Assembly: GCF_963678975.1 (NCBI RefSeq)
Contig: NC_089278.1
Coordinates: 15,915,959-15,979,958, forward strand
Reading direction: 5' to 3'
Source of the DNA: Dysidea avara
Lineage: Eukaryota; Porifera; Demospongiae; Dictyoceratida; Dysideidae
DNA length: 64,000 nucleotides
Both the position numbers and the translations under genes were made by a program. The notes under the pieces are model-generated. The model was not told the DNA's origin. It worked only from the letters and a program-made list of their open reading frames with translations, and did not search any database. Positions 10,040 to 63,300 of the stretch are shown in pieces; positions within the stretch are counted from its first letter, which is position 1, and every line of letters begins with the position of its first letter.

Positions 10040-13000
10040 TTATTTTTTTGTGCTTGTTTTAAGTTTTGAAAAATGAGTAAAAGGTTTGGGTTTCCAAAAC
10101 TGTGACTTACGATGCTTCAAACTGGTAAGTGGTTTAATAGCTCCATCTCCAGTACTGTGTTTACTTTTCAACTTAATGTCGTCAACATACTCATTTTCTA
10201 CTTCTTGCTCTAAATTAGAAGATGTTCTATTGAAATTTTGGGAAATATTTGATGAAAATTCTTGCTCTGATATAGAAGACCTTCTAAAACTTTGGGAAGT
10301 GCTTGACAAATCTTGTTCTGAATTAGGAGACTTTCTATCAAAATTTTGGGAAATGTTTGATGAATCTTGCTCTGAAGTAGAAGACCTTTTCTTGAAATAT
10401 CCAGAAATGGTTGATGATTCTTTATGAAAGTCCAATATCATCCGTCCTAAATCTCCATCAAATCTGTTCTTAGCAACCTATTAACAGTATAAATAGTCAT
10501 TAACTGTCTGCCAGCAGAGATATAATATGAACCAAAGTAAATTGGATATATGGTACATGTTGCCTTTAACCATATTTAACCATAATCAAACGCTGTATTT
10601 AATTAGGCGATTTAGCTAACAAACATCTATACCAAAACAGCCAAGCTATGAAAAAAGGATGCGGCCCTCAAAAAGGCTATGGTGAAAAAAGGTGGCAGCC
10701 AAGAAATGGCTGTGATGGTAGGTTAATGGCAAAAATTTTAATAATGACAATTCAGGTGAATGTGTACAAATACGCTCGAATTGTCGTTGTTAAATTTTTT
10801 GCCATTAACCTACCATCACAGCCATTTCTTGGCCGCCACCTTGGATTTCACATCCTTTTTCAATCTAGCTTTTTGGGGGCTGCACTCTTTTTTCACAGCT
10901 CGGCTGTTTTGGTATAGATATGACTTGCTTTTGTAGCTGAACTCTCTACACAGTGAGCTGTCATGTAGTTGAATGCTCTAATAGGGTAACTTGCTAACGA
11001 TGCTGAATGCTCTAATAGGGTGACTGTACTATTACCTATTAGAGTATCTCAATTGCACATTTGCTACATGTAGTTGGATTTTGTATTATAACTCAGTGGC
11101 TTTTTACTCTGATTCTTCTATACTACTGCAAGGACTTTCTATGATGATTATTCTATCTACATACTGGTTTTCAGCTCACTTTTCTAAGCGGTTTGCCTGG
11201 TAGGCATGTAAACTAGTGTTTTTTAAATTCATGAACTTGATCGCGTAATTGTGACACAGGTTGAGTTTTGTGTCATATCTCCATGGTCTTTATCTCGATT
11301 CCTTTCAAACTACAAAAAGGCACTCCTACAATGGTCACTCCATCTACATAGAAATTTTCAACTCATTCCTCCTAGGGGTTTACCCTGTGGGCATGACAGA
11401 ACTTGAAATGACTGGGACGATTTTCTTCAAATTTGGTACTATATGTAGACTCCCCTACCTGATGGGCACTTCTGTAGCAAATTTGGTTCCAATCAGATAA
11501 GAGATCATGGAGCTACATATGCGTTAAAATGATATTTTCTTTCTTCCTGTCAAAATACTCATGGTGTGGCGCACTGGCTTCTTGGGACTATCGTGTGTCT
11601 TGATATCACCAAAATGATGCCAAATAAAACATATAGAACAGCTTGATAAAACGAGAAAGTATGACTGTGAAAAACAGTATTACTATTAATTAATGATAAA
11701 CCAATTTCCAATTATCTACTGATTAATCACTACTGCAAACGGCATGTGCGCTGCTTAAAGGATTTTCTAAATTAAAATGATGCCAACAAGTCTTTTGTCC
11801 AAATTTTTGACTCGCCAATATTCCACTTATACAGTAAATTTTGTTCCAGCTATTAGAAATCCCCAGTTGAGAACTGGATACTAGGGTAACCAGGACAACA
11901 AGATGTATGGAATATAGGACAATACCATACAATTCTTACCTGAAGGTATTTAGGCTGCTTAGGAAGCTTTTGAAGGATGAGTATGTTATCAGCTTCTTGG
12001 CTAGCTTTAGCTGACCCTGATATTGATGCTGTCTGCAGCTCAACATGACTATCTTCCTATATAGATTGAGACACTATTATATAGTATACTGATCACCTGG
12101 TGTTATATGCAAGAAAAACAATAATTTTGAATGTTAGTAGGGACCAAGCAATACAAAGCACTGAACAGAATCTTATCTGTACTTAAACCAATAATAGCAC
12201 TCTACCCTAAGTCATACCACACTTACTAAAGTAGGGATTAAACTGGTTTTTAGCTTCTGATTGAATTTAGTTTCATGTGGTTCCTTTTTTGTTACTGTGA
12301 TCCCTACTGATATATAAAACTCATAAGGTTTTCATATACTTGTCCAGCAACCCATCATTACTGGAACATGCACAGCATAACGGAAACTAGGAAAGAATGG
12401 CTTTCTATTACATTGGTCTCTGTATACCCAATTGGCTGGTTCCACTGTATTAATCACTGTCAATTAAGTAAAGCAGCAGTTTGATTATATTTTTAGCTCA
12501 ATTATGTTCTGCACATTACACAGCCTTAAGAACAGACAAAGCACACAAAAATATCTGCAATCAATGCACTTGCTTGCTCTATTGTTTATAAGTATGTCCC
12601 GGGAATGTTTGAGATATTTGCTTATCTGAAAAATTAATGCGTGCGTATGTATGTCTGTCCATACTCATATGAGAAAAGGTATTACAAAGTGCTTTGCTTT
12701 GAGTGATGAATGGCAAGGCAGTCACTAAAACGGATTGCTATGAGTACCGACTAAAGAAATAGCTGATGTTTGGGTGTATTGTGTTTTAACAGCGGTGTTA
12801 AATGTGAACTTCATACCTATAATCACATAATTGTGGAATTGTCTAATCAGCTTATCTGTTACTGGAGTTTTAAATAGCACAACACCAACTTGTGTTTTTT
12901 GTTGAACTTAATTGTTCCTTGTATACAGAGTGTAGTTTTATCCCTAGAAAAAATGTTTAGTCAAATATAGTACCAATTTTCTAAGTACGTAACTAGGTAG

Positions 13001-16000
13001 GCATACTAGGCAAGCATCTGTGATATAGTATATTTTTTACAAAACTACTAAACAGCTAAACCTTATGTTTGAAAAAGTGTATTTAAGTTGGTTACTAATC
13101 ATAGTTGCAAATGTACATTAACAATAGCTTCTAGCTTCAATGAATCTTATTTCGTGGCTTATTACCATTTCCACTGTACTAACAATGCTAGTAACCGGCT
13201 TCTTTCAAATAATTCATGGCATAGACCACTCAGTTATGTGTAATATTGTGTATACACATAAATTTCTTACAATCAACACATATCAATGACTTTGCCTCTG
13301 TTTCACTAACTAAAATTGTGCAATGGCACGATGAGCCTTACTCAAAAGCCTGATTGTTTTGAAAAAAAAGAGAGTAAATGTTGTGTAACATACTGTACAC
13401 TGTATCATCATGGGTCATCTCCAGATTGTGTTTGCATAATGAGTTTGGAAACAGTAGTGTTCAGAGGTGTTAGTCTGAAATACTTCATGTTGTAAAGCAA
13501 GTGAGGTTGTTTACTCGTGAAATTCTTTTGTACATGTGTGTGATAGATGTTCATACTAACTTTTGGCTGGTTTTAGCAATGTTGTAGATATGAAATTGCA
13601 AGTGCAGTGATGGTGTTACAAAATCGCTCTTACATGCCATGAGTATCCAGTAACCATGTGCAGCACAATATATCTAAATCATTAGTCAAAACTACTATTT
13701 TTCCTTAAAAAGAACATATCTAAATTGTTACAACATAACACTGTTGTTCAATATGAATTCTAATGGAGAACCAGGGCTAAAATGGTGAGACGCCAACTCC
13801 TCCAGTGTCATGTTATCACTACACATGTGATGTGAGTGCAACCCGGACATAACACATACAGCATACAATAATAACACGGATAGTTTACTAACTGATTATA
13901 CTGGAGGTATATTATACCTTTCTGGGGTGTATGACAATTGTCACATGAACATTCTTCATAAAAGCAAACTTTCTGAATTCTGCAATTGCTTTGTTTTGAA
14001 GAGAATATTTGTCATCAATCCTACAGTACAAATTACAGTTGTTACAGGATATGTGAACACAAATACAAACGTACGTAATGTACAATAGTCTGCAACCAAA
14101 ATGGTCCCCCTATACTAGTACTTCTATTGTTATACTCAAGAGTTCTGTTTAAGAATCATGATAATTTCACACATAATAAAATATCATAGATACAAATCAT
14201 GTGATTCCCTAGGGATTGAAATAACTGAGGCTTCACTGCACAAACATTTTTCCAATTGGGATTACACCTTAAACACACTTACCCAGCAGATCCTATCATA
14301 AACTGCAAGTTATCAATTACTACATGTTGAATATCATAAATGTAGGCAGCATGGGTCATTACCTAAAATGATGGTGCTGTATGTATCATTATAATAATGT
14401 CTTGTATATCGGTTACCTCAATTACTGTATCGATGTCCACTGTTCCATAAAAGTTCATAAAATAAAGTGGAAGTTGTTCAAATTGGTCCGCCCAATACGG
14501 ATACTGACTAAGTGACTTTTCCAATTTAATACTGCACAAAACAATGCCAAGGTCACTATAGTACTTATTATACAAGACATGTACATTCAAGGTAAAAACT
14601 ATGTGTCCATGCCAAAACAACCAAAGGGTGTTGTAATACCCGTGAAATGAAAGTTGGTGGGCAAGAAATGGCTGCAATGATGTTGATTATTGAAGACAGA
14701 TGTTACAATTTAATTATATCGTTGACTATTTGTAATCTTATACTCTAACAGAACTTTTGAGGACTTCCAATATAACGCACATGGAATGTTTTATTTATTA
14801 GACAGTATGTTAAAATAATTGTGTGCCTGGTTTTCTGCATGGCGATCTTTTTTGAATCCTTAAGCAGTGGTGACAGCAAGTATCAAGTGTGGACTTGTTT
14901 GTGCTGAACTTTTTAAAAAAGCGTGTGTGTATGTTTGCACCCATGTGAGCAAAACTTTGTAATCTAACAGCAGCCTGTAGTACATGAGAAATGAAACTTC
15001 TAGGCAGGTAAGCTGTGGTTAATTCATGACGGTTTGAAATACAGGTGTAGTGATTCTCCACAAACTTTGTAAACTACCTTATCGTTGGGCTCTTCAGGTA
15101 TTTAACAACCAAAAAACACTTTGTAGGCTACCAGGAAAGACATATATATCTCTTTATGGGGAGTATTCCCCACATACTTTCTAAGTGATCAAGAGTTGTA
15201 CAGGGATAAGTGACAATCACCTAGAGATATAAATTATTAATGGACCTAAAGAATGGCATACACAAGACCATGTACATTTCATTTACAAAACATTCTTAGC
15301 AGGCTAAGTGTTCCCATGCTAGTTTTCATACTCAGTAACTATGGAGTATTCTCAATACTGTTATGTGAGGTGTCTGCTCTATTAGGGTATTTTTTGACTG
15401 ACTGCTCTATTAGAGTATCTTGATTGTGTATCATGTTTTTTTTGTTGAGGGGGAGGGGCATGTGCCCCCTGTGGATCTGCCACTGAGTAAGAGTTTGTAT
15501 GGAGTGACTTTAAGGCTCTAAGCAGCAACATTTTCACGTATATCAATGCATGATCATCAACCCATCAACTACAACTGTATTATATTTCTGTACTATAATG
15601 TACACTAGACTATAAGCAACACACTTACCCTGACAGCTGATTTAACAATGTCTTCACAAGACGGACATTCTTGATTTCAAAACTTCCCCACAATGTGGTT
15701 ACCTATGGTGATAGTGCAAACTGTGCTAATTCAAAACAATTATTGGTAACTGAATACTTCTTGAATATAGCCACTGCAAGAGTTCATAGTAATGTATAAC
15801 TGAGTTGACATGTGCTATTTAAGTGCCATATAGTATGTTAATAGCATCCATAACAGGAAACCACATAAATAGGGCTGGGATGAATAGTGAAATTTATCTT
15901 CAAACATTCTAATCCTATTTTTTAATAAGTTTGTAAGCATTTGGTAAGTGCATAGCAGTAGTACTGAATGATGTGATCAATCGATTGCAAATGGGAGTGT

Positions 16001-19000
16001 CCGCTATATTGCAATCATGCATAGGCAAACACCAACTAATGGCTAAAAGGACGTTTTCCATAAATTATCTATCACTTTATAAGGTTTTTTAAGGCTACAA
16101 TCACATTAGCAAGTAGGCATGAGGCTATTATGCTCCAAAAATTGAGCATTATGCTTTTGAGCAGTGCTAAAAAATCACCTATTATACTTTTGAGAATTTC
16201 CTATTATTCCCAAAATTATGCCACCATAATTGGCTAATGATGCCAGTTTATTACAAGTTTAACAGCAGGTTAAACAGGGTTAACTAGCAGGACGACCTTG
16301 CCTGGATTGTCACACTAGTCATACAGGTTTTGACCCAACCCCCCCTAGTGCATTCCAATAATTCAGGCACGTATTTCAAAGAGGTCTATTAGGGGGTCCA
16401 GTCTGACATTCCAGCACATTTGAAGTAAACAGTTAGCAAGCCGTTGTTATCTTTCCCTCCCACCCACCTCCTCAATCTCTTCTTCCATTAACAATAAAAT
16501 AGTTAATGTGACATGGGCGGTGCTCTTTTGTCTCAGAGGAAGTTGGGTGGGTTATCCCCAAAATGCAGAGGAAAACTAATTGATGCATTATTTCAGGAAG
16601 CACTCGAGCCTGAAACAATAAGAGGACAGACATGCTTGCTAATATGCAGGCAGACAATTGCCCAAGGGTAATGTCCTGCAGGCTCAGTGTCAGTTCAATC
16701 TATTTATGGAGCACCAATATCAAGCCCATAATCCCATTCTTTAGAATGAATAGCTTACACGAATACACATTCCAGGATCCGTGCTTGACTCATCGACTCC
16801 GGCATCTAGTTAATGCTGTATTAGACTGTTTTCATTGATGTTTAAGCTTAGAATAGTCTTGAATTCTTTAGCTGGTAGCATATTTCATTTCAATGTGACT
16901 GCTTTATTAGAGTAAATAATATTCACTGACTGTTCTATTAGAGTTTCTGACTGCTCTATTAGAGTATCTCGATCTTCTTTAATGAATTGTGCAATCTGCA
17001 GATTTTCCTACTGTTAAAGCTTTATAATCACCTCAAAATTCTAAAATAATTCCTGATTCCCACACATACTTATTATGCTGGCATAATCGCCGCCCTAGTA
17101 GCAAGCTAAACTGCAATGGTGGGCATGGCACATGGAGATAGAAGAGATGAACATCGATCACACAAGATGAATAAGCAGCTGCAATAAAGATAACAATGTT
17201 TATTTGTAATTCTTTCATAGGCTATGAGTGCATTACGAAGCTTCGAATGATAGTTTTTAAAATTCGAAGTTTACTTAACCTTTGAACCCACGAAACATTT
17301 GAAGCTCCCTACACATAAAAGTTAATTACCTACCTAAATTATAAAAATATTTAACTTGGGTGCCAGGAAGTGTAAGGACAATTTTGCTCAAACCTTTGCT
17401 AGTACACGTACGTAGTATATACAGCTAACAATGCCTTAAATACTTTTTTAGGACAGTGTGAACTGGGAATCTGATAGCACAACATCCACTTTGTAACAAT
17501 CATACCTATTGCTACATTCCACTCAGCAAAATACATACATGCAGAAAACTGACAGCACTAACACTACTAACCCCTTGTTGACAGAGATCCAGTGACATTT
17601 CACTGACAAGAGTTGTCTTGCCACTTCCAGTTGGTCCAGTCAATATCGTCACCTCACCAGGCCTGTGACCCTTAAGAGTCTTTGTTAGACCAGGAAACCT
17701 CTGCCACTGAGGAGTTGTTAAAGTATAATAATAATTTAAGTGTGTATTGTAAGTATGTGTACCACAAGTACATACATACATACACATACACCATACAATC
17801 TATAGCTCACTTTCACACCAGCCACCTTCTCAGCATTAAGATAGTCAGAGTACACATCGTCTCTCAACTACAACAACAAATAATGTTTTAAAATAGTCTT
17901 CATACTACTGCCTACCTCTGGAAAAGTCATTATCTTGTTATGTGCTATTGGCCTTGCAGATTCGATTGTTTCTTTTAAGTTATATCCCTTCATTGAACAG
18001 TGATTAGAATCTTTGTATAATATAGTGTTATGGTGCATACCTCACTGAGTGCATGTACTGCATTCTTGATGTCCAGTTCATTATGGAACCTGACAGAGTG
18101 ACAATCACATAACTAGAACACAACCTGAATATGATTTCTTAATTCATTATTTACACAGTAATATATTAGAAAAGAACAGTACTAAACTATTTCATATGAT
18201 TGGTCAAGTAAAACACAATTGCCGCATACAGCTGATACAGGCAGGAATTTATACTTCTAGCACGCACGCACGGACGCACACGCACACGCACACACAGTAT
18301 ACCTTATAATGCACATGCATACAACATACATATCAGAACAACTTACGTTACAGCATAGCATCTCTTCATGTTCAGCTTTTTAGCAAACTGGTTAGTAGCC
18401 TGCTTTGACTGTGGATCATTACCAAGCCACAAAATGATCTTCTCAAATTGTTCCAATTGTGGTAACAGCTGCAAATAAATATACAGTAAACTCTGTATTA
18501 AAGTGGGGCATATGCACTTATGCAGAAATTTTGAAAAGCTAAATGACTGTTCTATTAGAGTAGTTGATATTGTCTGACTGCTTTAGTACATAGAATATAA
18601 ATTCTCAATTGATCTAAGTATTTTTCTGAAACTTCTCTAAACTAAATATTACAACAACAATAATCTATTTACAAGCACATAAATGCTGTACATATCAGGA
18701 AGTATACAAGGTACAGTATAATAAACTACTATACTATACAGTACTAATATTTTAAAAATTGTTAATTTAATGCACAGCAATACAATTGATGTTTCTACCT
18801 CAGGTGAAAGGTTCAAGCAGCCATTTGGTAATGACAGTGCTGGCATCTCAGTAGCTTGGTGAACTGCCATAGCATCAAACTCACTTGCAGTTAACACCAC
18901 CTGTAATGTTGTAAGAGAATATTCTTTAACTGACACTATAGTGCTACTTTTCATATCTTTGGCCAGTGGCCTAGCACTCTGCACATAACAAACATGCCAT

Positions 19001-21447
19001 TGTATTGCTTAGCTTTAAAAAGTTCAGGGGGAATGGGTTGCAAAATCTAAGATGGCAGCCAAGAAATAGCTGCAATGGTGGTAATGAGTAACACTACAAT
19101 ACTGTGATCATCAATATTAAAATAATTGTGTAGCCATTTCTTTCCATAGCGACCTTTCATCTCACCCTGAACTTTTAAAAGGCTGAGCCCTTTTTTGTCT
19201 TGGCTGTTATGTCTTTGTACATTTGCAAGCCAGTTTTAGTGCTTGCTTTTACTTGTATTTTTCTTCTCAAAAAAAAAATTAAATGTTTGTGCATAATTTA
19301 CTACCTTGATGAAAATTACATTGGATGGCAATTCCATTAGAGGGTTTTTATCATGTGTAAGGCACTCTTTACAATATAACTCGGTAGCCGTTAGTACAGC
19401 TTATTTTTAAACCGCAAAGTGTTTGAGTGATTACCATGATACTTATGAGATTACCTCCTTATCAGACTCCTTAATCAAATTCCAGCCAAACAGTCCATGT
19501 AGGCCATGTCTATGGTGATACACCATGATGTATGTGTACAGTATAAAAATATTTAGCTGACCTTGGTTCAAAGTATGTCTTCCTGTTGGCCTGTTCTATG
19601 GTACTCTCCACCTTGACCCTCGCAATATTCTTGTCATTATAGAATGGATATGCTAAACATTGTTGATCTATTTCCTGATTGTTGGCAATAGTGAACTATA
19701 TTGTTACACATAGATGTATAGTGATGATACAAACAAGACAATACAATCAGAGGCGACTGCTCAATTAGAGTATTTCAGTACATTCAGTGTTCACTCTATT
19801 ATTAGAGTGCATGTTCTGTTAGAGCTTTAAACACCTAGAACTGCACTATAGTAATACTACAACTGCCACTTGGCTGTTCACTCAATGGAGACACTATTGT
19901 ATGATACACATATTATCAAAATGACAAAGAACAGACCAAGCCGTAACACTGCATACACTAAATTTTATAATACACCTGTGTTACATTAATTATTCTAATG
20001 AATAAAATAATCATTATAATTTATAATGATTAATTTATTCATTAGAACACACACCGGTAACTGCACTTTATTATACAATGGTAGATCCAGGATGGGGCAT
20101 TTGGGACAAATCCTCCCCCCTCAGTGGAAGAACCATACTTCTTTTGATAAAAATACTATACACCTTGTCAGACCAAAATCATATACCTCATGACAACTGC
20201 ATATTATCGCCATTTAGTTATTGCAAACTCACTCGAACCAAAGTTAAAACAGCCGTCAAACTGTCATCCAGCATCTCCGTATGTACTAAGCGCCTCTTAA
20301 ACTAATTATCGTGTTGTTTTAAAGACTTTCATAACCTTTTAAGCAGCTTTTACGACTTCACTACCATCTGTAAAGGACATAATGACAAAATCAACCTACT
20401 AAGGAGTGATCATTGCTGCTTAAAAATACAGCAACTAGTAAGAGAATCTGCTCTCCCCAACCACATATAACTTAGGCCATTTGTGCCCCTCCCCTCCCCT
20501 TGCCAGCTCCTGGATCTGTCCCTGTTATATATATACATGCGCAAACCTTTCCAACCACAGTGTGCACATTAAATTTCTCCAATGTCTCTGATGATATTTT
20601 CTACAGAAAAAAAAACAAAAACAAGTAGTGATTCTATCACATTTACGCAAGATGTACAAGATATACACATGCATAACTTATTAACATACATTAGAACCAA
20701 ACAATTTCATTGCTCTGTTCATAACAGAAACAAGAGACATCTTCCATGGTAAAGTTTGTGACCAAAACTTCTCAGCAGCACTGACACTGTTCAGGAGCTT
20801 ATAATTGGTAGGTGGTTGGCTGGTCACAGGTTTTGATTGAGATCTGTTATCTATCCAACTGCTGAAATCAGTCCAACTGCCTATATGAACAATAAAACAA
20901 GGCCAATTAAATCTATTGCTAAGTAACTAGCTGAGGTGTAGCTTGCATGGGTGGGTAGGTTATGGTACTCCTGGATTCTGTTATTTAAAATGTGCAGTCT
21001 AGACACTACAGCTATGTTGTATTCAGCTATCATGAACTGGTAATCAAAGTCTGTGGTGTAATGTGAAAACAAGCCATTGAGAATGAGATTTGAATGGTGG
21101 CCAAATAACCATGAAATCCAGGAAAAATTTTTTGTACATATGTGGCAGATGAAGTACTTACCTGACATCTTACAAGGCTGACACACTACACTTCCTGTGG
21201 TCTTGTTGACATGTACACCATAACCAACAACTCCATTCTTCTCTTTTACAGTCTTATCACATATAGGACAATCGATCATAAATGATGTGTGTCCCTCTCT
21301 GTACACAAACTGCTTCTCATCCAAGTAAGTCTTGATAGATGCAGCGTTAGGTGATCTTAGGACCGTCAACTGTCTGGTAGTCAATAGGTTATAGTTCACA
21401 GACTTTAAAATTCTTTTTGACCACTGTGCTACTTTATAGATGTACAT
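10040..21447 (-). CDS. TWNK: Twinkle, mitochondrial replicative DNA helicase
   Basis: Seventeen coding exons join in frame to 720 residues: 21447-21162, 20880-20690, 20600-20547, 19674-19562, 19509-19455, 18900-18799, 18468-18347, 18089-18041, 17987-17916, 17867-17811, 17706-17572, 15702-15629, 14531-14417, 14362-14283, 14020-13918, 12056-11940, 10477-10040. All introns are GT-AG with matching phases. Residues 1-40 are basic with no acidic residue (mitochondrial presequence). A CxxC...CxxC zinc-binding pair is C60/C63/C89/C92. The TOPRIM-like region (234-290) lacks primase catalytic residues (TASEFD, GND). The RecA-like helicase has Walker A GPTGSGKT (391-398), SFE with E421, Walker B HVVID (D492), IHPRK and [11 protein letters not shown]. 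Family knowledge: this hexameric 5'-3' helicase unwinds mtDNA ahead of its polymerase. The start is chosen because an acceptor-like TTGTACTATTGCAG directly precedes it; upstream in-frame ATGs (21516, 21498) lie before that site. The C-terminal tail carries tandem repeats. Confidence 0.93.
10204..10420 (-). repeat. In-frame tandem repeat in the Twinkle C-terminal tail
   Basis: Four diverged units begin at 10204, 10261, 10312 and 10366 (spacings 57, 51 and 54 bases, all multiples of three). On the coding strand each gives a Ser/Gln/Glu/Asn-rich block of the form SxxSEQDxSSxSQxFxRxS. They lie after the conserved core ending NRFDGDLG and before the basic C-terminus (KTSTKK). The keeping of frame suggests that the tail is translated. 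Confidence 0.8.
10626..10919. mobile_element. MITE with ACCAAAACAGCC termini, in Twinkle intron 16
   Basis: Left end TCTATACCAAAACAGCC and right end GGCTGTTTTGGTATAGA are inverted, and the inverted homology continues inward (GGCAGCCAAGAAATGGCTGTGATGG against CCATCACAGCCATTTCTTGG, and so on) almost to the centre, making a near-complete foldback. A related element lies at about 59415-59675, and fragments occur near 14600-14720 and 19016-19180. Confidence 0.8.
10974..11050 (-). repeat. Dispersed CTCTAATAGAG-type motif, three copies, in Twinkle intron 16
   Basis: Three degenerate copies (TGCTCTAATAGGGT twice, then CTATTAGAGTATCTC) lie within 77 bases. Reading the Twinkle transcript, they appear as the GATACTCTAATAGAGCA form. 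Confidence 0.6.
15372..15425 (-). repeat. Dispersed CTCTAATAGAG-type motif pair, Twinkle intron 12
   Basis: CTGCTCTATTAGGGTAT and GACTGCTCTATTAGAGTATC lie about 23 bases apart on the plus strand, antisense to Twinkle. Confidence 0.7.
16897..16975 (-). repeat. Dispersed CTCTAATAGAG-type motif triplet, Twinkle intron 11
   Basis: GACTGCTTTATTAGAGTA, GACTGTTCTATTAGAGT and CTGACTGCTCTATTAGAGTA follow each other at about 21-30 base spacing. The last is followed by TCTCGAT, which also follows or precedes copies elsewhere. Confidence 0.7.
18544..18568 (-). repeat. Dispersed CTCTAATAGAG-type motif, Twinkle intron 6
   Basis: Single clear copy GACTGTTCTATTAGAGTAG, with a weak second GACTGCTTTAG about 30 bases on. 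Confidence 0.6.
19016..19180. mobile_element. Small TIR element in Twinkle intron 5
   Basis: AAAAAGTTCAGGG at the left and CCCTGAACTTTT at the right are inverted. Inside are GGCAGCCAAGAAATAGCTGCAATGG and a diverged inverted counterpart (GTAGCCATTTCTTTCC), which relates it to the MITE at 10626-10919. Confidence 0.5.
19755..19825 (-). repeat. Dispersed CTCTAATAGAG-type motif cluster, Twinkle intron 3
   Basis: GACTGCTCAATTAGAGTATT is followed by ACTCTATTATTAGAGT and TGTTCTGTTAGAGC, three diverged copies within 71 bases. Confidence 0.6.
19993..20047. repeat. AT-rich 27-bp-arm hairpin in Twinkle intron 3
   Basis: TTCTAATGAATAAAATAATC and its near-perfect inverse GATTAATTTATTCATTAGAA flank a nearly loop-free centre. 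No flanking duplication could be assigned. Confidence 0.6.
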
Positions 21448-31851: not shown

Positions 31852-34800
31852 TGTGTTGTGTGTGTGTAGTGTTGTGAATGCATTAAATGTTAATGCAAAC
31901 ACTGTGTTTTCATTTAGGTATCGTGGTTCAAGACTGCCTGGCTGTAATGGAAAACTTGCTAAAGTCTAACAACTCTAATCAATCATTTTTCAGAGAAGCA
32001 AGGTACATTAGTGTGGTATCTGTACATTCACATATTATTTCTTGTGTACATACTGTTGTTTATCTGTTGATGTGTTGTCAGTATACATACAAGTTTCACT
32101 TCCTTAGCTTGATAACAAGACTTGTACAATTTTTCAAGTTTGATGGTATGTAGTTTGAACTAATGTACGTGTGTTGTCATGGCAACTGTTACAGGATCCC
32201 AAACAACCTGGGGTGACCAGAAAGTGGCTAATGTTTCCTTAATGTTGAAGGTCTGTTTGTTCCTTGTGTCTACAAAGCTTGCAATATATTGTTATTAGGT
32301 GATCAGAATATTAGTAGCTCCCAACAACACTCAACAGAACATCATAGCTTGTCAGAAGGCCATAGAGCAGTGTGGTATGTTCACCCTATTATATGTAAAT
32401 GGCACTTACTAGTACATGCATGCACTACACACAGACACTTAGACATATGTCATACGCATTAGAAAACACACTAATATGGTGCACACATACTAGTGTGTGA
32501 TGTCCATTGTGTACTATGGGCTCTTGGGGTACATTATTCAGCCAAGTGTGATAATAGCAGTATAAGAAAGAGATTACTTCCTTCATTAATAGTTCTGCAT
32601 GTTTCCTTCTGGTTTGATAATAGTATACTAGTAGTCATTTTGTGGAGTAATCTTTGGAGACCACTGCCTTCTCTGTGATAAGCAGGTCCATGATGTCTAC
32701 AATATCTGAATAAGTCATGGACTGGAATAGGATGCATCGGTGTCTTCACTAATTTGCCACTACTCTGGCATGCATCCCTTTCCAATACCAATGTTGGACG
32801 AGCACATTGTAAAGCTTGTGACTTGTAAAGTGTCTGGCACATAGACTGCCATGATTATCACATAGTGCTCTGTCTTTCTATGATCACAATATCAACTACA
32901 AGCCACATGGTCCAACTATCAACTACAAGCTAGATCTAGCCACAAGTTCTGACCAGCTGAAGTGTTCTATAATACAGATACCAACTATATGTTTATACTA
33001 TTAGTTTAGCACTCTATCAATTGTATCATGTGAAAGTCAAGTGTCAGTTATATCATAAACTTTATCAAACAGTAATTTTGTTATAACTCTGTGTGCTCCT
33101 TTAACTTTATCTGGTAGATTTCCTTGTTCCAAGTGTTCCCCAATCTCCACTACTTCAGGATGTTTGCAGTAATGTGATAGTTGCAATTTTGTATATCATT
33201 TTTTGCTAAGCTTTCAGCTGTTGCCTCTTACATAGGGTTCCGAGACAGGACAATACAGACATTTCCAAGACAGGACTTCTCCCTATCAGCACAATATACA
33301 ATGTTTACATGGCTCTTTGATGCCTTAACCATACATTCTGGTCCACCAGTCGATAGCTTGTGTTTGACGTCTGCAGTAGAACCTTTTACACAGAGTGATC
33401 AGTATACAAATAGTAATCAAAGTGTGAGTTGCTCCACACAACAGCAAGAGCCTCTATCCATAACTCCTCTCAGTCTTCTAATTGGTTTATGTGATTGGGT
33501 GACATATATAGACTGTCAGAGAATAACACAGCTGCTAGACCTTGGTGTGACACATTGGTTTCCAGCATACAGTAGCTTTTGTACTTCCTCTTGCTGTGTT
33601 GCAAGAATGCATCGAGTGGGTTGTCTTATTGTTAGTATGAGGCAGATCAATAGCACATTGGTGGGTTTCCAAAGAGTCAAGTCCCAATTATTATGCCTTC
33701 TGTTCTCAGCCACTACCACCTCTACCACATACTGTTTTCCCCCCAGTTCCAATTGTAGTTTAGCTGTGCCACTAGTTAATAACACCATTTATGTGAAAAG
33801 CAGCATGTGGATTGACAACAAACAAATATACAGTGTTATTGGTCATATTTGAGTTACCCTCCCCTGCCTGGCCAACAGCAAAGGGGGTTTCTAGTTTCCC
33901 TGTCTAGGTGATAAAGTCCCTCCTTCCCGCAATGGTAGTAGGTCACGCTTGGCATCTGGTCTCCGCGTGGGAGCTGATTTAATGGCTTTCTACTATGACT
34001 GTTGTCTTGTCTGCTAGTGTTCAGCTGATTTATCCCCATCTCAAGCTGTGACATCCTCTGGGATAGCTGTTCAATTTCTCACATCAAGGTCTGTTCCGAT
34101 GATAGTGGCATATGCCTCACGGCACCTCCACTTGAGCCAATTGTCCCGACTGTGAACTCCTCAACCTTCCCACGATAGCTGGCTTCACCATATACGACTC
34201 CACTTCCAGTGTGGCATGTTACGAACACGTGGGGTTAGGAAGACTGATAATCACGTGACTTAGTTTGTACAATGACATCACACACAATATTTCATGTAAA
34301 TACAAAACAAAATTAAATGTTCCTAAAATCCCTAAAAGTGTGTGACACTCCCGGGGTTGATTACCCCAGGTAATCAAAGTTCCAATCTTACAACAAATTA
34401 TTGTCTATTCAGTTACTTCTAGTGGGATGAGATGCTGCAATGGTCGACGCAAGACAGTAGGTTTCCTCTCATTATTCAAAACTTGAACACGTGCACCACG
34501 TACCAGCTCATCTCTTCCCTTCAACAGTTCAATAACTCGTCCCAGCTTCCACCAGCATCGTCCGGTGTGGTCCTCTTTCATCACCACGATGTCTCCTGTT
34601 TTGATTCTATTAACAACTCTCTGTTTCTCATTTCTGCAGTGATGATACTCCCTCAGGGCTAGCAAATATTCTCGTCTCCACTGCTTTGTAAACTGATCCA
34701 AAACTCGAAACTGATGACGAGCTCGCTTAGTCAATGCCCTCGCTGTGCTCTTCACTTCAAACTGACGTCCATTTGGGGTGGTAATAATCTGTCGTCCATA

Positions 34801-37800
34801 AATTAAATCTGCCGGTGTCAGGGGCTGAGATACTCCTTCATCATCATCGTATAGGTAAGTCAATGGTCGGTTGTTCAATGTTCTTTCTACTTCCATCAGC
34901 ACGGTGCGTAGCTCCTCAAAACTTAAACACGCTCTGCCCACAGTCTTCTTGAGGCATCTCTTCACACTGCCAACCATCCTCTCCCAGAAACCCCCCCACC
35001 AAGGGGCCTTCTCCAAAATAAAACTCCAGTGAACTTGATGATTGACTATATATTGCTGCACCTCTTGTGATCTGACTATCTTCTTAACATCAAATGATGC
35101 TGATTTGAATGTCTTGGCATTATCTGTGATAATGACTGCTGGCAATCCTCTCTGACTAGTGAATCGTCGAAAGGCCAGTAGGAAAGTAGTACTGGTCAAA
35201 TCTGCGGTGAGCTCCAGATGTACTGCTCTTGTGGAGGCACATGTGAACAGACAAATATAAACCTTGGATTGACCATTGGTTGCTTGAGAATCCTTAACAT
35301 ATAGCGGACCAGCAAAATCTATACCAGTATTAAGGTATGGTGGTCCTTCACTTACACGTTCTTCGGGGAGATCTGGTGGTACTGGTGCCGGATAAGGTTT
35401 CCCTTCGATCCTTAAACAGATAACACATTTCCGAATGACCTTCTTTACTGCTTCGCGACCCCTTATAATCCAATAGCTCCTTCGAACTGAATTCAGGGTT
35501 TCCCTTATCCCATCATGTAAAACACATTGGTGGTGATAGCTAATTAACAATGTAGAGAACCAGTGTTTTTGTGGCAACAAGGTAGGATTGTTAGAGCATG
35601 ACGGAACTGATGCACTGCCAAGCCTGCCACGACAGCGGATCACTCCTCTGTCATCTAAGAAAAGGTGCAACTGTTTCAGAAAAACTTCTTTCTTCAGTAA
35701 TAAATCATGATACTCGTTTGCAAAGACTCGCTGCTGAATTGACTTCACCCACAGCTCTTCTGCTAATTTCAAATCCAGGGCTGACAAACCCTTAGGTTCA
35801 GGGTTATCTTGCTTTCTGACCTTCTGAATCATGGTCTTAGTGAATTTTATCACCAGAGCAGTCACTCTCAACAGTCTTAGTCTTGAACCAAATCTCTCCA
35901 GATCAATAATTCTCTCCAAATTTAAAATGGCTACACTTGCATGATTTACAACTGCCAGTGCATGCGTGACAGCACAAGGTTTCTTTACCAATTCCTCAAT
36001 AGCCTTCTCTCTGTCATAGGTTGTAGGTAGGTTTGGCCATTGATGAATGGGAACCTTAAGAAACGACGGTCCATTCCACCACAAATCATTGTTGACAAGA
36101 TCTTCTGCCACACACGATCTTGAAGGAATATCCGATGGATTGTCCTTCCCCGGACAGAATCTCCATGAATCCCTGTCAGTCAGGACACAGATTTCCTCTA
36201 CTCGATTCTGGACATATGGTTTCCACTGGCGCTCATTCTTAATCCAACACAGTGTTGTGAACGAGTCTGTCCAACAAAAGGACTGGGTATCTAAAGGTAG
36301 TGAATTTAATTGCTGTTGCACTGTATTAAGAAGCCTCGCTAAGATAGTGGCACCAAGAAGCTCCAGTCTGGGAATAGTCTGCTTCTTTATCGGTGACACC
36401 CTTGCCTTTGATGCTACTATATTAACATCAACCGAGTCTCCTTCTGAATACTCAATCCTCAAAAATATGACTGCTGCATAGGCCTTCTCAGACGCATCAC
36501 TGAAGCCATGAAGTTGACAACGAACAGGTGATCGGTCCTTAGCGAACAAACATCGGGGGACTTGAATACTTGTCAGTAATGAAAACTCCTTAGTCAATCG
36601 CATCCAATGTACTAGTGAGCTTCCTTCCAGTTTATCGTCCCAGTTAACCTTCTGTGTACACAACTGTTGAAAGATAACCTTGAATGACACTGTAAATGGA
36701 CTGATGAACCCAAATGGGTCGTATACTTTAACAGTTACATGCAACAGAGATCTCTTAGTAGAAGGAAGGGTATTCACAAACTGGATCAACTCATTAAAGT
36801 CAACACAGAAATTGTCTCTTGAAATATTCCACCCCAGACCCAAAATCTTGAGCGGTTTATCTACTGCTGGTTGACTAACCGGGATATTTTTTGCTGCTTC
36901 ACCTTCTGTTCTGTCAATCATCTGTTGCAGGGTGCTATCATTGGTTCTCCACTTACGGAGATTGAAACCTCCCTTCTTCATGATCTCCTTAGACTGACAG
37001 TATAAGTGATACCCTCCTTCAACATCGGAGGCTCCTCCTGGGAAATCATCAACATACAAAGTGTTAGACAACAACTCAATTACCACTGGATCATTGCACC
37101 TTTGTCGAGAAAGGTGATGTTGAATTACTCCTTGTAAGATGGCTGGACTTGGTGTAAGACCAAACACCAACCTGCAGAATCGGTACTGTACAATCTTAGG
37201 ATCTGCTTCCTGTACTTTATCAAACCACAGCAACCTTAGCATATTGCGATCTTCCAATTCAATCATAATCTGGTGAAAGGCCTTCTCTATATCAGCCGTA
37301 ATTCCAATCCGGTGAGTTCGAAATCTCAATAAAACATCAAAGATCAGAGGTGTCAAATTTGGACCCTTTTTCAAACAATCATTTATGGAGTGATGTCGCT
37401 TCTCTGACCTTGCTGAACCATCGAAAACGATCTTCAGTTTAGTAGTGTCCTTATCCTCCCTTATAACACCATGGTGAGGAAGAAAATAAGCACTACGAGA
37501 GCTTAACTCTGACATTGGTACAGGTTCAATTATGCCAGTTTGCAACTGAGTTTGAAAAATCTTATCGTACTCCATCATCAAAGCCTCTCTACCTTGCAAA
37601 CGAGCCTTCAGCTTCATCAGCCTGCCCACACACAAGTTGTAATTCGAAGATTCAGGTCTTGCTGACTTCCAGGGCAATCCAACCTTGTAACGGCCCTCTA
37701 TAAAATCATACTTGATCTGGGATGGAAAGGGTTCTTTAGTCAAGTCCAGAACAGGCTCTTCCACAATTCCAATAGATTCAGTTTCCCAAAATCTTCTCAG

Positions 37801-40800
37801 CTCTTGTTCCAATCCACTCGTACCTTCTGAATGTTCACCCAACGTTGTGGGACCATGAATGGCTACAGCTAGATGAGTATGAGACACATTACTGTCAAGT
37901 TCTTCACCTGTTACTGGTCCAGATATCAGCCATCCCAATCTACTACTTACAGCTACCAGTCCACCGGATCCTCGAATTATCTCATCGTGAACGATTTCCC
38001 GATAATGATCAGAGCCGATAAGTACATCAATAGATCCATTGTCCCTGCGGCCATCATCAGAGTGGGGGAGATCTGCAAGCTCTAACTCCTGGAATTCAGG
38101 GTGTTGTCCAAGGGTAACAACTCTATTCAAGGGAGAACAAATACTAGGAAAACATAGAGCTGTAAATTCGATTCCTTCCTGACACCTTCCCAACAGTTTC
38201 ATCTTAACCAAGTCACATTGCTGTCTACTAAATGACTGACTACCAAACACATTCAAACTTACAGATTCTTTCTTCAGTGCAGTGAGACCCAATCTGTTCT
38301 TCAATTTAAGAGTAATGTAGGATCTCTGACTCCCACTGTCTAATAACACTCTCACAGGTACCAATTCATTACTGCTGTTTACTGCAAAACCACTGGCCGT
38401 TTGGAGCAAAACAGTTCCTTGATTGTAAGCTGCTGTTTGAGTGGTAGATGTCTCTTCAGTGTTGGGTACAGTGACTAGGTTTGCTTCGGGTAGTCTTGGT
38501 TCTCGTGACTCGCAAATGGCTTGATGATGTCGACGTCCACATTTGCGGCACCTCCTTGCACTGTGACACTGACTGGCATGATGGCCTACCGCAAGACAAA
38601 CAAAACAGCGACCATCTCTCTTCAAAACATCCTTCCGAGCTTGTACGCCCTTCACAACTTCACAGGAGGCAGAGAAGTGCTCTCCTTTACAAAACAAGCA
38701 TGATCTTCCTCCAGAGCTCTGCTCCCTGATAACAAATGACGAAGTAGTCCCTCGATTATGCCTGGACATCCCTGGCTGTGAATCCGACCTGTTCTCACTT
38801 ACTCTAACTGTGTCACTAAGCTCACGTGCCTCCACTTCACACTTAATGACTTGCAGCAATTCGTCCACCTTCCAGATGTCTCTTGTAGTCACTCTTGCAA
38901 TTTGCAGTCGGACCTCACTAGGTAATTTGGCCATAATCACAGGAATAAGGAAACTACCATATTCTTCAGCCTTCACACCCAAGGCTTCTAGCCCTCTACC
39001 ATTAGCATGGATCTTGTCATAAACTAGCCGAAGGTGTGATGCCTTATCCCCCAAACACTTGGGGACCTGTAGTAGCTTCTCCATGTGTGCAGCAATAATT
39101 GTTTGAGTCTTTCCAAAACGTTCGTGCAGGATTTCCTTGGCCGCCATGTAGCTCTTCTCTGACAAAGGCAGTCCCTGTATGCTGCGAGCAGCAGCCCCTT
39201 CTAGCAGCGAGTTCAAGTAATTGAATTTATCTATTGCTGATAATCCAGAATTGCGGTCCACCACGCTTTCGAAGCTGTCCCACAACGTTCGAAATCTTGT
39301 TATATCACCGCTGAATCGCAGCAAGGTAAACTTGGGGAGTTTCAGTTTAACAACGCAGATAGCGACTTCATCTTCTCTCCTTATGGGAGGTAATACTAAG
39401 GGAGTAGACTCGCGTTTACTATGGCCATTGTCGGGTGCACCCGTCCTATTAATGCGCTCTGGCTCACGTGTTTCTATTGACTCACGTGTCTCACTTATTT
39501 CACGTGACATAGTCTCACCTCCCGCCTTCGTGGCTTTCTCTTCTATCCTTATATCACTTGACTTAGAAGGTAATACACTTTCAATCTCCACTCTAAGCTG
39601 CGTTATTTTATTCGACAGTTCTTCAGCCTCGATGACCTCATTTTCAATTTCGTCTGTGGGGCACTCTGCTAGTATTAACTCATCGAGCGCCGTCAACAAT
39701 GTGCATTTTCCCTCCTATTGTTTCGAAATAACTTCCAATCGACGTAAGGAGTCATCTTCCAACAGTTCGGTCTCCATCAAGGTTTTCGCCTCTCGAGTGA
39801 ACTTTGTTACAACGCCCCTCTGGCCTCATCTTCGTGCCTTCAATCGGTCTAGATCCACTGACATCTCTTCTGAGCCTTCCTTCAATCAATGTTGATGACT
39901 TTCTCAAAAGTTCTCGGGCCCCACGTTGGGCGCCATGTTACGAACGCGTGGGGTTAGGAAGACTGATAATCACGTGACTTAGTTTGTACAATGACATCAC
40001 ACACAATATTTCATGTAAATACAAAACAAAATTAAATGTTCCTAAAATCCCTAAAAGTGTGTGACATGGCACGTACAGCTTCTTCTACTTTTTTGGGGCG
40101 TTGTTGCTTGACTGCAAATGCCACCTGTGGGTTACTCAAGCAGTCTAGGTAGTGGGTTAGGGCCATCTGCTCCACAGCTTTTGCGTCTAACTCAGGGAAA
40201 GCCTTTCCAGTAAGGCGTCATAGTTCCTCAGCAAATCTTCACACCCTTCATTTAGACATTTGGTTCACACCTGTAACTCAGCATTGTAGAGCTCTTTATT
40301 ACTAGCTGGCTCAAATCTCTGTGTCAGTGCTTCCTTGGCCCTGCCATAATCAGCTTGTGCCATCTCAGACAAACTTTGAAATGCTTCTGGGCCCTCCCTG
40401 CCAGGCATACCTTGATCCAGTTCAGTTTAGCTTCCACATCCCAGTCTTTGACGGTCACTACGTTCTCAAACCTGGCTATCCAACCATCCCATCCCTCGCC
40501 TCCTTGTGAATTATCCGTGGCTTGTTGCGTGACTAATCTTCCGCGATGGCAATCACTATAGGGTAACAAACGGAGCAACCAGTGCGTGTCAAACTCACCT
40601 CATGTACGTGGTACCAATTCAGACCATGGTACAAAGTATTAACGCCTGGGGTTAAAAAGAAATTCATTTGATGAAATCCTGCCGACTATGCCACATGTAT
40701 AGCCGCTGGTTCAAAGCCATATGCTTCAACAACACAAGGTCACCCTTCTCATTAACACTATATGCATGCACCTACACCACAGTGCATTATATGGAATACA

Positions 40801-44900: not shown

Positions 44901-47900
44901 ACTAGCCCAAAAAAACAAAAGCACAATCATAACACATACATCAACAGTGATATTTGTTAGTTACTAGAATACAGTAGTTTAAATCCGATTAGAGTAGAGG
45001 GGAGTGAATTCTTGTCAACATTACTAATAGAATCTGCTACTGTGTCAGTAGATCTAGTTTGAGCTACTTGAGGCACTACTGTAACAATCTTTCCTCTACG
45101 AATGGTCAAATATTTTTCCCCTGCTGACAAATGTCTTTTTAGCTCAACATGTAGTTCCTTGGCTGCCCCCCTTTCCTTTAGAGTGATATATACACTTTGT
45201 TATAGGAGGAACTGTGTCTCAGTTTGCTGGCTCTCTTCAAGATGTTTTATTTGGTAGAAGCTTCGGCTACTGAAATCAACAAAGGTCTGCCCTTATCATC
45301 AATAGGCTTTTTTCCCAACCTGACACATTTCAGCAAATTGACATTATCAATCTTAAGCTCAGAAGAAACCAATTGGGAAAAAGCATTCTTATCTTGCTGG
45401 GTTCTAGCTTTTGTAGCTGAGGCACTCGGCTCTGGAAGATTATATATAACAAGGTTACATTTCCTTCTTTCTCTATCTAAATATTCATCAACTACTTCAA
45501 CTGGACTAGTAGAAAGCAAGCTGTCAACGACAGATGGAGGTTTTGATGTTACAGTATTTGCAGTTGCTTTGATTTCACTCTCTAAGTTCTGGTTTAGTGA
45601 ACACAGTTCATCAACTTTAGAAGAAAGCTCAGAAAGTACATCTCTAATTACATCTTGTTCTTCTGCTAGTGTTTGCAAAATGCCTCCATTTGTGTTTTCA
45701 GACGGTGATAGAGTTGATTGTACATTTCGAAATATAAATTTCTTCAAGCGTGTCACACAATTGTTCAGTCGACAGTAATATATGACATTGCTAATTTTAT
45801 TAGTTACTTGTGAGAGGAGCTGATAATGCTCCTTATCTACTCCTTCACATTCAGCATGTACTAATGATGTGCACAAATCACACTGTAACACGTCACTTGT
45901 AGAAGTAAACTCCTTACTGCTGTATTCACATATCTCGACTTTTTTACTCAACAAGACACCCTTTGTGTCTGGGGAATTGTTTGGACAATTTCGTTTGGTT
46001 CCACAAAGTTGAGCAGCCAGCAGGCTGTCTTCCAGTTGCTTTCCGTTAGTGGCATCAACATACATCATTCACCAATTCTAATTAGTACCTCTTTTTTATA
46101 CAGTCTGGCTTAAAGTACGGAACCAACGTATGTTCAGTCAATGTTCCTTCCTTCTAGCTCCTTGCGACTAGTGTGAGATTATCTGTTACCTTTCAGTGCT
46201 TTCGCTGTTTCGCAATCTTCATATTGGTTGCGTGATGAATCATATGGAACCCTTATGACTCCTCTTTTCTTATCTGTACTTGCTCTTTCAACCACATCAG
46301 ATCAGCCTGGTTATGAAATGAGTCCCCTGCTGTGTACAGGCTGCATGTTGGATACTATATACAGTGTATAGTGTGTACCATGTCTTCCTATTACAGGGTT
46401 ACTCTCCCACTTGTGTTCCTTCATGTTTGCTGGAGGTGTTCCAACTGAAATATTGATAGAAGTTAGTCACTGTCATTGTTTCTGTGTGGTCTACTATCTG
46501 TAGTACTTTGTATGGGCCATTAGCAAGGTGGCGTTTTACATTAATAATCATCATGTGACATGTTTTTAATATCCATATTATAAATACTCAATATTTTGAG
46601 GGTTAAGGGGTATTTTTGGGATGGGGGGCTAACAGTGAAAATTTTATCCTTGAAATATATTAGTCCTTCAATGTTTGTAATTCAAAAAAAAAAAGAAGCA
46701 ATTATTACAACATTGCTGAACCTCAAAAATATTTCCTATTTAGTACCAGGCTTAATGGTAGACAATATATTATACTGTACAACACACTGGCTTACTACCA
46801 ACTAATGAAATTTGTGGCTTGTTAAAATAAATGCCAGTAGCAGCTGCTACAGGTATGTGGTACCCAGTTCTCATAGTTTATTGGCGTGCATCACCAAGTA
46901 AGCCATTAGTCTCATGCCCAGCCGGGCTCGCGCTAATGTGCAAACACCGTCTGGTGACATTGCTCGAGTTTCTTGGGCCCGGAAGTGCGATCTAGCCAAA
47001 ATATTGGCTGGCCAATTAGAATTAAAGAGTTGCATAATTGTTTAAAAACAGTGAAAAGCCATTTGAAATAGCTAGGAATAAAGTAAACTCAGAATAGGGT
47101 GTTTACAAGATGTGTTCTCTTCATTTATCGTATTAGTAGAAGATAGCGTTTCATTTCTGGTTAAACGTCGAGTCACGATTCTTCGGTCTTATATTGAGAG
47201 ATTGAAAAGCACAACTTGACAACAAATGTCTTGAACAACCTAGGTGAGTAACTTTTAGTAAACAGTTTTAAATCGTCTGCTGTTTCATCTACTTCCAATA
47301 CATTCATGCAATTATGCAACTCCTCGATTCTGATTGGCCAGCCAATATTTTGGCTGGATCGCACTTCTGGGCCCAAGAAACTTGAGCATTGTCACCAGAT
47401 GGTGTTTGTGAATTAGCATGAGCCCGGCTGCGCATGAGACTAGTAAGCCATCCTGTGTAATCTGCATGTGCCTACTTACTCCCCAATGGATGTCTACGCA
47501 ATGGTTTTGTACTTAAAATGGAGTTAATGTCAATGTAGCATTTTGTAAGCTATTTGATATCTATCTACCTTTTTACTTTTCAGACCATCAACACTGTGGC
47601 TGAAGTGATCAGAGGTTATCGCACTAACCAACAATTCTTTGATACTGTACAAATCCCATCTACCCCTCCAAGGTGTGTGTCATGTACAATTGTAGTGGTA
47701 CAGGTATATTGGGTCCCATGTAAACTGTGCACCATTGTCATCCAGATGTTTTTAAATTGACTGTTCTAATAGGTTATTTTGTCATTGCACAGATGTTCCA
47801 TTTTTATTAGCCAGTAATTATATGTACAGTATAGAATGGGTTTCTGAGCAAACTCACTTACTGTACTGATAATGGTATTCAGACATTAAGGATGCATATC

Positions 47901-60334: not shown

Positions 60335-63300
60335 CAGGCCCGTAGCCAAGGGGGGTTCGGTAGGTTCGGACGAACCGCCCTCTTGGGAAAAAGGTCCACA
60401 ATTTCAGTAAAAAGGTCCACAATTCCAAGTCCATATAAGTCTACAGCAAACTGGAATCGATTCCTTAAAGTCCACGTACTTTATCCCCAAATCGCTAAAG
60501 CTGATAACAATCGATTGTGGTTTTACATTATACACGTGATTTAACACCTTATGTAAACAACAGTGATGGGACGCGCGAAACAGAAAGAGCGTGAGAGGAA
60601 GCGGTCAGCTTCTTCCTGTCAGCGACTAGATAAACTTTTTGCGAAGAAGAGCAAGGTATTTGAAGAAGAGGTGATTGCAATTGATAGTAATTCTGACGAC
60701 GATTCCGCTGAAGATGTTTTGACCAGCTCTACTCCCTCCTTACCTTCTGGTAATATAGCTAGCTAGCTATATAGCTAGCTTGCTATAGTGAATAGATAGT
60801 AGATAAACATTCTAATTCTCGTAAATGCAAGTATTAAATTACCCAGTTTTGAGTGTAAAATGATTCTACTGTGCTCATGCAAACGTGGCGTGGCTTGTGC
60901 CTGTCAGTTATCTACTATACAACAGACTGTCAGTTACTGATTATTCCAGGATGCTGTAATTCAATGCACAACATATAAACAATAGATTGTGCTAATAATT
61001 TTAATTGTCATTAAATTATCAACTCAGTATACCATGTATAGTAGAAATACAGTGTAATGTATAGTATGAGTACGTAATACGTAGTATGAAACTGATGGCT
61101 CACAATAAATCATTCTTCTAATCTATTATAGGAACGGAAGTCATTTTAAATCCGGTTGAAGATATTACCAGTAGCTATACTCCACCATCACTACTTACCC
61201 CTGCATCATCATCAGCTTCTGAGTCTCAAATGGTGAAAGCAACTGATGTGCCACAACCTAGCAAAACACCAAGCCTTGTCCAAATGGACATTGGCATAAT
61301 CTATTCTAAGGCTACGTCACCTGCTGATTTTTCTGCTGCAGTGCACTCGCTGATGGTGGCTGAAAAGTATGAATTGCTTACAAACCATAAAATTACACAC
61401 AAGGACCATGCATTTCCAACACAGCATGTTGGTGGTTGCAATCGCAGTTTCAAACCTGCATGGCTTTCACTGCATCCTTGGATGGTGTACAGTGAGCAGG
61501 TTGATGGAGTATTCTGCATCATATGTGCCATTTTCTGCACTGATTTGTCCAAAGGAAGCTTTGTTAACAAGCCATTCCATGCGTGGAACAAAAAAAGTGA
61601 AAAGGCTAAGGAGCATGAAAATTCTTTGTATCATCAAAAGTGCATGGAACTGGCTGATAGCTTCAAATATAATGTTGAGCATCCGGATGTCTCCATCACA
61701 TCTCAGGTAGATGCTCGCAAAGCTGCAAATATCGAACGCAACCGTAGCATTCTGAAATCTTTGGCTAGCGCTGTGCTGTTTTGTGGCAAACAGTGCATAG
61801 CCTTGCGAGGAGATGCAGAGAAACCTGAAACACCAGGTAATCCAGGAAATTTTCTTGCTCTACTAAAATTGCTAGCTACAAATGATGATATATTAAGGAA
61901 ACATCTGGAAACTCCTGCAATGAGAAATGCAACATACATCTCTCCTCAAAGTCAGAATGATTTGATTGAGGTTATAGGTGAGCAAATATTCCAAGGCATA
62001 GTAGATGATGTCAATGCATCTCCATTTTATGCTATTCTGGCAGATGAGGTAACATCCCACAATGTGGAGTACCTAGCTTTATGTGTCAGATTTTTTGATC
62101 ATAAGCAGAATACAATCAGGGAAGAATTTTTGGCATTTCTGACCTTAGTAAGAATAACAGGTGAGGCAATTTCTGCAGTCATATTAGGCTTCTTAAGTAA
62201 GAACCAAATTCCAGCATCAAACATGCATGGTCAGGGGTATGATGGTGCTAGCAACATGGCTTCAGATTCGGTAGGTGTTCAAGCACGTATTAAGCAGGCA
62301 GCCCCATTAGCTACGTATGTACATTGTAATGGCCATTGTCTTAATTTAGTTATCAGCAAAAGTTGTAAATTACCACAAGTACGCAATGTTCTTGATCGGA
62401 TGCAAAGCTGCAGTAAGTTTTTTCTGTACAGTCCAAAGCGAATGGGTGTTTTAGAACTCATTATAAGGCAAAATGTGGTTGATGAGACAAGAAGAAAACC
62501 CTTGTTGGATGTTTGCAGGACCAGATGGGCAGAACGGCAGAGTGCTTATCAACACTTCTATCAGGCATATGTGTTCATTACTGAGGCTTTGGAGCTGATC
62601 GGCTACAAACGGCACATGGAAAAGTATGGCACCACCTATTCAGATTGGGGTACAACAAGCCGTAGTGATGCACAACAACTGCTAGCAGGAATCATCAGCT
62701 TTGAATTTATTGTAGTCTTTCTTACAACTTACCAATATCTCTCACACTTAGCTGGTATCACAGTAAAGCTACAGAAACGTACACTTGATATTATTGAAGC
62801 TCATGAAGAAATTACAGAGATTACCAAAACTTACAGCCTTGAGTGGAAAAATGTTGACTCTGGGTTTGCTAAGATATTTGAACACAGCAAAAGAGTTGCA
62901 GAAAAAGTAGATTGCACCATTCAAATGCCACGCATTGCCTCTAGGCAGAAGCATCGTAGCAATGCTACAGCAGATAATCCTTGTAAATACTTTCAAAGGA
63001 ATGTAGCAATACCACTGCTGGACCACATAATTTCTTTCTTGGACCAGCAGTTCTGTGATTCATCTGTTACTGCTATTATGCTGTTAGGGCTTGTGCCATC
63101 TATTCTTTGCAGAAAGAATATTAACCTTGAAACAGCTGTTTCCAAATACAGTGCAGATCTTCCATCCCCAGAACTATTCCAAATGGAACTTAAGCGTTGG
63201 AAAAATCGCTATACTGGTAAGAAAACCAGAGAAAGACCATCATCAGCTGGAGAAGCACTAAAGGAGTGTGACAAGGATATGTTTCCCAACATATTTGTAC

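Follow-up and report, generated by a model that had tools for sequence, protein, structure and literature searches.

The mitochondrial DNA (mtDNA) helicase Twinkle of the demosponge Dysidea avara is encoded on the minus strand of the window analysed here, a stretch of 64,000 nucleotides (NC_089278.1, positions 15,915,959 to 15,979,958, forward strand). The protein carries four cysteines in the pattern C-x2-C...C-x2-C, upstream of a TOPRIM domain that has lost two of its three catalytic acids. This combination is the ordinary condition of non-chordate animals in the rows sampled: the sponge state is most likely, by sequence comparison, that of the animal ancestor, with chordates derived. The protein is very probably the replicative helicase of demosponge mtDNA, with a primase half that most likely makes no primers and an ancestral four-cysteine ribbon that most likely binds one metal centre. 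A preliminary description of the window had portrayed the same protein as an intermediate state, with a zinc domain kept and primase chemistry lost.

The gene was rebuilt completely, with GT and AG at 16 of 16 introns, and is arranged as follows.

10040..21447, minus strand: gene of the mtDNA helicase Twinkle in 17 exons, coding for 720 aa, or for 727 aa if the upstream acceptor of exon 4 is used
21162..21447, minus strand: exon 1, presequence-like N-terminus and most of the four-cysteine domain
20690..20880, minus strand: exon 2, closing part of the four-cysteine domain (SWTDF), then linker
19562..19695, minus strand: exon 4, starting at 19674 in the preliminary model and at 19695 (TATAG acceptor) according to the NCBI protein
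17572..17706, minus strand: exon 11, Walker A GSGKT (394-398), in the reconstructed gene model
10040..10477, minus strand: last exon, coding for the final part of the helicase domain and for a tail modelled at low confidence, with about four 18-residue repeats

This gene is a full-length orthologue of known Twinkles; the preliminary description had recognized it as an animal Twinkle. The best protein match is the NCBI model 'twinkle mtDNA helicase-like [Dysidea avara]' (P0001, 727 aa, 99% identity); human Twinkle (PDB 7t8b) is matched at E=2.4e-144 and the predicted structure of the full protein aligns with it over residues 31-608. The helicase domain is recognized by Pfam (AAA_25, E=2e-21; DnaB_C, E=2.3e-9), and Toprim_2 scores 21.7 bits, slightly below the cut-off of 22.1. 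Residues 1-33 include six Lys/Arg and zero Asp/Glu, a presequence-like composition. The junction of exons 1 and 2 is supported by homology, because GSWTDF spans it and matches GSWEDF in the human protein. The order of domains is that of the T7 gene 4 primase-helicase, whose TOPRIM and helicase regions are matched at E=2.6e-17. T7 gp4 is an active primase, and the Glu and Asp residues of TOPRIM are the catalytic acids of primases of this type. The residues in question lie as follows, in 720-aa numbering.

21268..21270, minus strand: C60 codon, first Cys of CPIC, aligned with T7 gp4 C17
21259..21261, minus strand: C63 codon, second Cys of CPIC, aligned with T7 gp4 C20
21181..21183, minus strand: C89 codon, first Cys of CQPC, aligned with T7 gp4 C36
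21172..21174, minus strand: C92 codon, second Cys of CQPC, aligned with T7 gp4 C39
18880..18891, minus strand: TASE (237-240), the TOPRIM EGE site, catalytic Glu replaced by Ala
18415..18423, minus strand: GND (283-285), the TOPRIM DxD site, first Asp replaced by Gly, second Asp retained

Both cysteine pairs, CPIC at 60-63 and CQPC at 89-92, are thus encoded by exon 1, and the rebuilt 720-aa model agrees exactly with the positions given for them and for TASE and GND in the preliminary description. In the 727-aa form TASE moves to 244-247 and GND to 290-292, with cysteine numbering the same. Compared with TEGEID and MFDMD of T7 gp4, the sponge protein has Ala for the first Glu and Gly for the first Asp; the second Asp is present and Glu at position 240 is retained. 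The earlier claim that the catalytic TOPRIM residues are lost therefore holds for the Glu and the first Asp, but not for the second Asp.

The distribution of the site was surveyed in 57 rows: 56 Twinkles chosen for spread from 304 retrieved proteins, plus T7, excluding rows without letters over the cysteine places. Names accompany 3 of the 8 sponge-clade rows, 1 of the 6 cnidarian-side rows and 3 of the 9 protist/algal rows; other clade labels derive from the tree or from likeness. Cysteine occupies all four places (CCCC) in the sponge clade (8/8), on the cnidarian side (6/6, Dendronephthya, P0009, being the named row), in insects (6/6), in the priapulid and the myriapod (1/1 each), in Mucoromycota (4/4), in protists and algae (9/9) and in T7. 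Two annelids out of two and one relative read CHCC, or CxxH (P0030, P0128 and P0121), and three molluscs out of three read CLCC, or CxxL (P0238, P0243 and P0127), so that three of the four cysteines remain. The hemichordate and echinoderms (8/8: P0024, P0028, P0038, P0114, P0122, P0235, P0236 and P0286) keep the first three cysteines and place the fourth at 91 instead of 92 (CxC), as does a relative, P0290; the cysteine appears to have moved by substitution, because the distance to the next Trp is unchanged. Chordates (6/6) possess at most two of the four: both amphioxus rows and three of the four vertebrates have C89 only, and Alosa has C63 and C89.

A wider count of 141 rows gives a similar picture. 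Letters are present at all four places in 112 rows, 29 being gapped somewhere, and 97 of the 112 are CCCC. The remaining 15 comprise five vertebrates, five ambulacrarians, three annelid-type rows, one mollusc and P0157, an insect-side row with Trp at the second place (CWCC) that is the sole exception to insect retention in this count. Of 91 vertebrate rows, assigned by name or likeness, all 91 have Ser in place of C60 and keep C89; position 92 is occupied by Thr in 67, Ser in 23 and Ala in 1, never by Cys, and Cys at 63 is confined to Alosa (P0029). Human Twinkle (TWNK; PDB 7t8b/7t8c) and macaque (P0035) differ from the sponge in keeping one of the four positions, C89, which bears out the statement in the preliminary description that the human protein has a single cysteine in this segment.

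The TOPRIM motifs were read in the 57 rows as well. Ala, Gly or Arg stands at the place of the catalytic Glu in 8/8 sponge rows; the first Asp is Gly in seven of the eight and gapped in the eighth (Ephydatia), and the second Asp is present in 6/8. Protist and algal rows (9/9) and T7 retain the Glu and both Asp. Four cysteines with a broken TOPRIM are thus usual in the non-chordate rows sampled (sponge 8/8, cnidarian-side 6/6, insects 6/6, priapulid 1/1, myriapod 1/1), and the sponge is hence neither unusual nor intermediate between plant-like and human Twinkle: on this point the earlier interpretation is not supported. The cysteines shared by sponge, cnidarian-side, priapulid and arthropod rows argue for a site already present in the animal ancestor and for human absence as a chordate loss, and it is in rooting this character that the sponge sequence helps. 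A few rows deviate: Amphiura has Glu at the first place, and Asp stands at 290 in the myriapod and in the lepidopteran P0201, in P0201 beside an alignment gap. These exceptions are read as probable chance or misalignment, because the remaining TOPRIM motifs are broken in all three.

Four rows which we take to be Mucoromycota (P0167, P0171, P0175 and P0203) combine the four cysteines and both Asp with Arg for the catalytic Glu (4/4), which looks like another case of lost primase chemistry in which the cysteine motif survives. Loss of the TOPRIM Glu may have happened a single time, in the common ancestor of animals and fungi, or on two occasions. The Mucoromycota rows have no fixed place in the tree, and neither choanoflagellates nor other non-animal holozoans were recognized among the matches listed (best 120 of 735, 120 of 217 and 90 of 90).

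The cysteine motif is firmly tied by profile comparison to that of primase-type Twinkles: the four-cysteine region matches eight protist rows that keep the primase residues at 99.1%. Arabidopsis Twinkle, as described in passages of PMC3610141, and protist or algal Twinkles such as those of Acrasis (P0159), Phaeodactylum (P0170) and Stentor (P0190) share the motif; in contrast to the sponge, these proteins retain TEGE and DxD, and the Arabidopsis enzyme is reported to possess primase activity (PMC3610141).

Homology with the ligands of phage gp4 would be positional. Sponge cysteines fall Cys on Cys with C17, C20, C36 and C39 of T7 gp4 both in the MAFFT alignment and in hhalign, the latter at 4.7% and E=0.0026, which bears on the possibility, raised in the preliminary description, that they are not homologous to the gp4 ligands. 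Comparison of the four-cysteine region with seven gp4-like phages was not significant for any of five Twinkle groups, protists included. The match between the A2 profile and T7 gp4 starts at TOPRIM and does not take in the gp4 zinc domain. T7 gp4 chains also appear among the VIA-align matches of the full model, but none of the ranges listed extends to that domain. Pfam Zn_Ribbon_Prim (PF08273) is not matched by the sponge protein in its full match table. It is also missing among the matches listed for nine other Twinkles, four of them protist or algal with intact TOPRIM acids (best 25 rows for five of the nine, these four included), so the Pfam model may simply be narrow. Exon 1 alone gave no meaningful match to PDB sequences (best E 0.42) and sub-threshold matches only to Pfam. 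In the structure model of exon 1, primase matches are tied with unrelated chains; this model was built from alignment A4, in which most rows had been selected because they contain the cysteines.

Conservation of the four columns was also assessed. In 16 sponge and cnidarian-side rows the four cysteine columns are all invariant, as against 41 of 316 N-terminal columns (p about 2.5e-4 under random placement). Weighing against a special status of the site, six of the seven N-terminal cysteines are invariant in these rows, C190 and C311 among them, and therefore invariance by itself cannot single out C60, C63, C89 and C92.

The closest known parallel is Drosophila melanogaster Twinkle, which, according to passages of PMC8688847 and PMC9653094, resembles the sponge protein in being a mitochondrial helicase with C-x2-C...C-x2-C and a broken TOPRIM; the fly row aligned here is that of D. 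nasuta (P0200). The N-terminal domain of D. melanogaster and other invertebrates is reported to contain several primase motifs, including four cysteines, and C68, C71, C102 and C105 of the fly interact with a 2Fe-2S cluster (PMC9653094). The equivalent fly cysteines are described as holding this cluster and not zinc; cluster-deficient double variants are unstable, and human Twinkle binds neither metal (PMC8688847). The metal is thus known in the fly, whereas the sponge site is putative, and insect TOPRIM motifs are degraded further than those of the sponge, for example to VSNLID in P0200. One passage of PMC3610141 states that metazoans lack the four cysteines, another that zinc fingers occur in some of them, with differences at other primase motifs; the latter corresponds to the state of sponge Twinkle. 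Retention of the cysteines with loss of the primase is already published for invertebrates, and the sponge case is known in kind.

Which metal the sponge site would bind can be approached in two ways. That it holds structural zinc, as gp4 and DnaG do, with the 2Fe-2S cluster a speciality of flies or insects, is slightly less likely than not. The ligand spacing C-x2-C...C-x2-C favours zinc, matches of the predicted exon-1 fold include primase zinc domains, and the annelid set C-x2-H...C-x2-C is found at zinc sites of bacterial DnaG. Zn substitution, furthermore, is reported to leave the fly domain stable (PMC8688847). Set against zinc are the 2Fe-2S cluster of the sole animal Twinkle with an identified metal in the literature covered and the fact that sequence does not separate Zn from 2Fe-2S at this site. 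Of the zinc-binding domain shared with gp4, plants and protists that the preliminary description proposed, the homology of motif with primase-type Twinkles stands; zinc is not established, the fly having 2Fe-2S, and the gp4 profile is not significant.

Alternatively, 2Fe-2S may be bound throughout non-chordate animals and give the mtDNA replisome a redox-sensitive component since lost in chordates, which is plausible but short of probable. Twinkle acts in mitochondria, where 2Fe-2S clusters are made, and the four sponge cysteines occupy the positions of the insect set (insect rows including D. nasuta). The bound metal in D. melanogaster, as reported in PMC8688847, is 2Fe-2S. The Cys-to-Leu change in molluscs (3/3), which leaves three of four ligands, speaks against such a cluster; among the papers listed, metal data for animal Twinkles were seen for Drosophila alone.

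It is very improbable that the sponge enzyme is a true intermediate still making primers by means of the second Asp and the metal site: the second Asp and Glu240 are indeed retained, but the Glu is replaced in every sponge row and the first Asp in all those with a letter there, while protist/algal rows and T7 have all three acids. An active or half-active primase was rejected, as two of the three acids are gone. That the cysteines are a chance occurrence or an artefact of the gene model is practically negligible and was rejected on the strength of the NCBI Dysidea avara model and the junction homology; the four cysteines also recur across the sponge clade.

The enzyme favoured here is a helicase with a primase half that most likely no longer makes primers and a ribbon most likely holding one metal centre. 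By orthology it would act in mitochondria, where the C-terminal ring-forming helicase would unwind mtDNA. Primers for mtDNA are presumably made by the mitochondrial RNA polymerase. The metal centre, either Zn or, following Drosophila, 2Fe-2S, would hold the N-terminal domain together, a stabilizing role suggested by the fly work, and, on the proposal made for the fly, may support contacts of the helicase with DNA or the inner membrane.

The remaining interest lies in how the site changes across Bilateria. Tentatively, and with a little less than even confidence, the cysteine centre may have outlived the primase, persisting as an independent metal site in sponges, cnidarians, priapulids and arthropods. 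Within Bilateria it may have been remodelled separately: to CxC in hemichordates and echinoderms, with His as second ligand in annelids, with loss of that ligand to Leu in molluscs, and with near-complete loss of the site in the chordate stem, amphioxus being affected as well. If this is true, phyla would differ in which metal is bound and in how mtDNA replication is controlled by redox state, with human Twinkle as an extreme. No account of this change (CxC, CxxH, CxxL and chordate loss) was found in the open-licence literature, nor, judged by titles, abstract starts and passages, a sponge or phylum-wide account of the cysteine site. A 2015 replicase paper counts what the iron-sulfur site of Drosophila Twinkle does, how it is distributed and how it evolved among 'important new questions' (PMC4419789), and the 57-row tally gives a first answer on distribution.

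The start of exon 4 deserves separate mention. Two in-frame acceptors lie 21 nt apart, at 19674 and 19695, and the NCBI protein fits the upstream one. P0001 is identical to the rebuilt protein apart from seven additional residues, FTIANNQ at 178-184, which can be read from the TATAG acceptor 21 nt upstream of the earlier exon 4. The three other sponge rows printed at this place (P0004, P0007 and P0013) also carry residues there: Geodia has KTEFHTVSGREE, Ephydatia KAKFPTLSGTTA and P0007 NAKFPQATGEAQ. Because of these rows the 727-aa form is preferred, and exon 4 most likely starts at 19695; the preliminary 720-aa model agrees with P0001 elsewhere and is most likely seven residues short here.

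Inside the last Twinkle exon, a 54-bp tandem repeat (10203-10422, minus strand, 4.1 copies, 72% matches) encodes the 18-residue repeat of the low-confidence C-terminal tail. Elsewhere in the window, three open frames were noted.

34405-39714, minus strand: single 1769-aa open frame, by eye resembling a Pao-type retroelement polyprotein; a 300-residue slice had no Pfam match
61122-63527, plus strand: 801-aa open frame in which DUF4371 and the hAT dimerisation region are recognized, a putative hAT-type transposase or derived gene
45247-46068, minus strand: 273-aa open frame that matches the PHD finger weakly, under the Pfam cut-off
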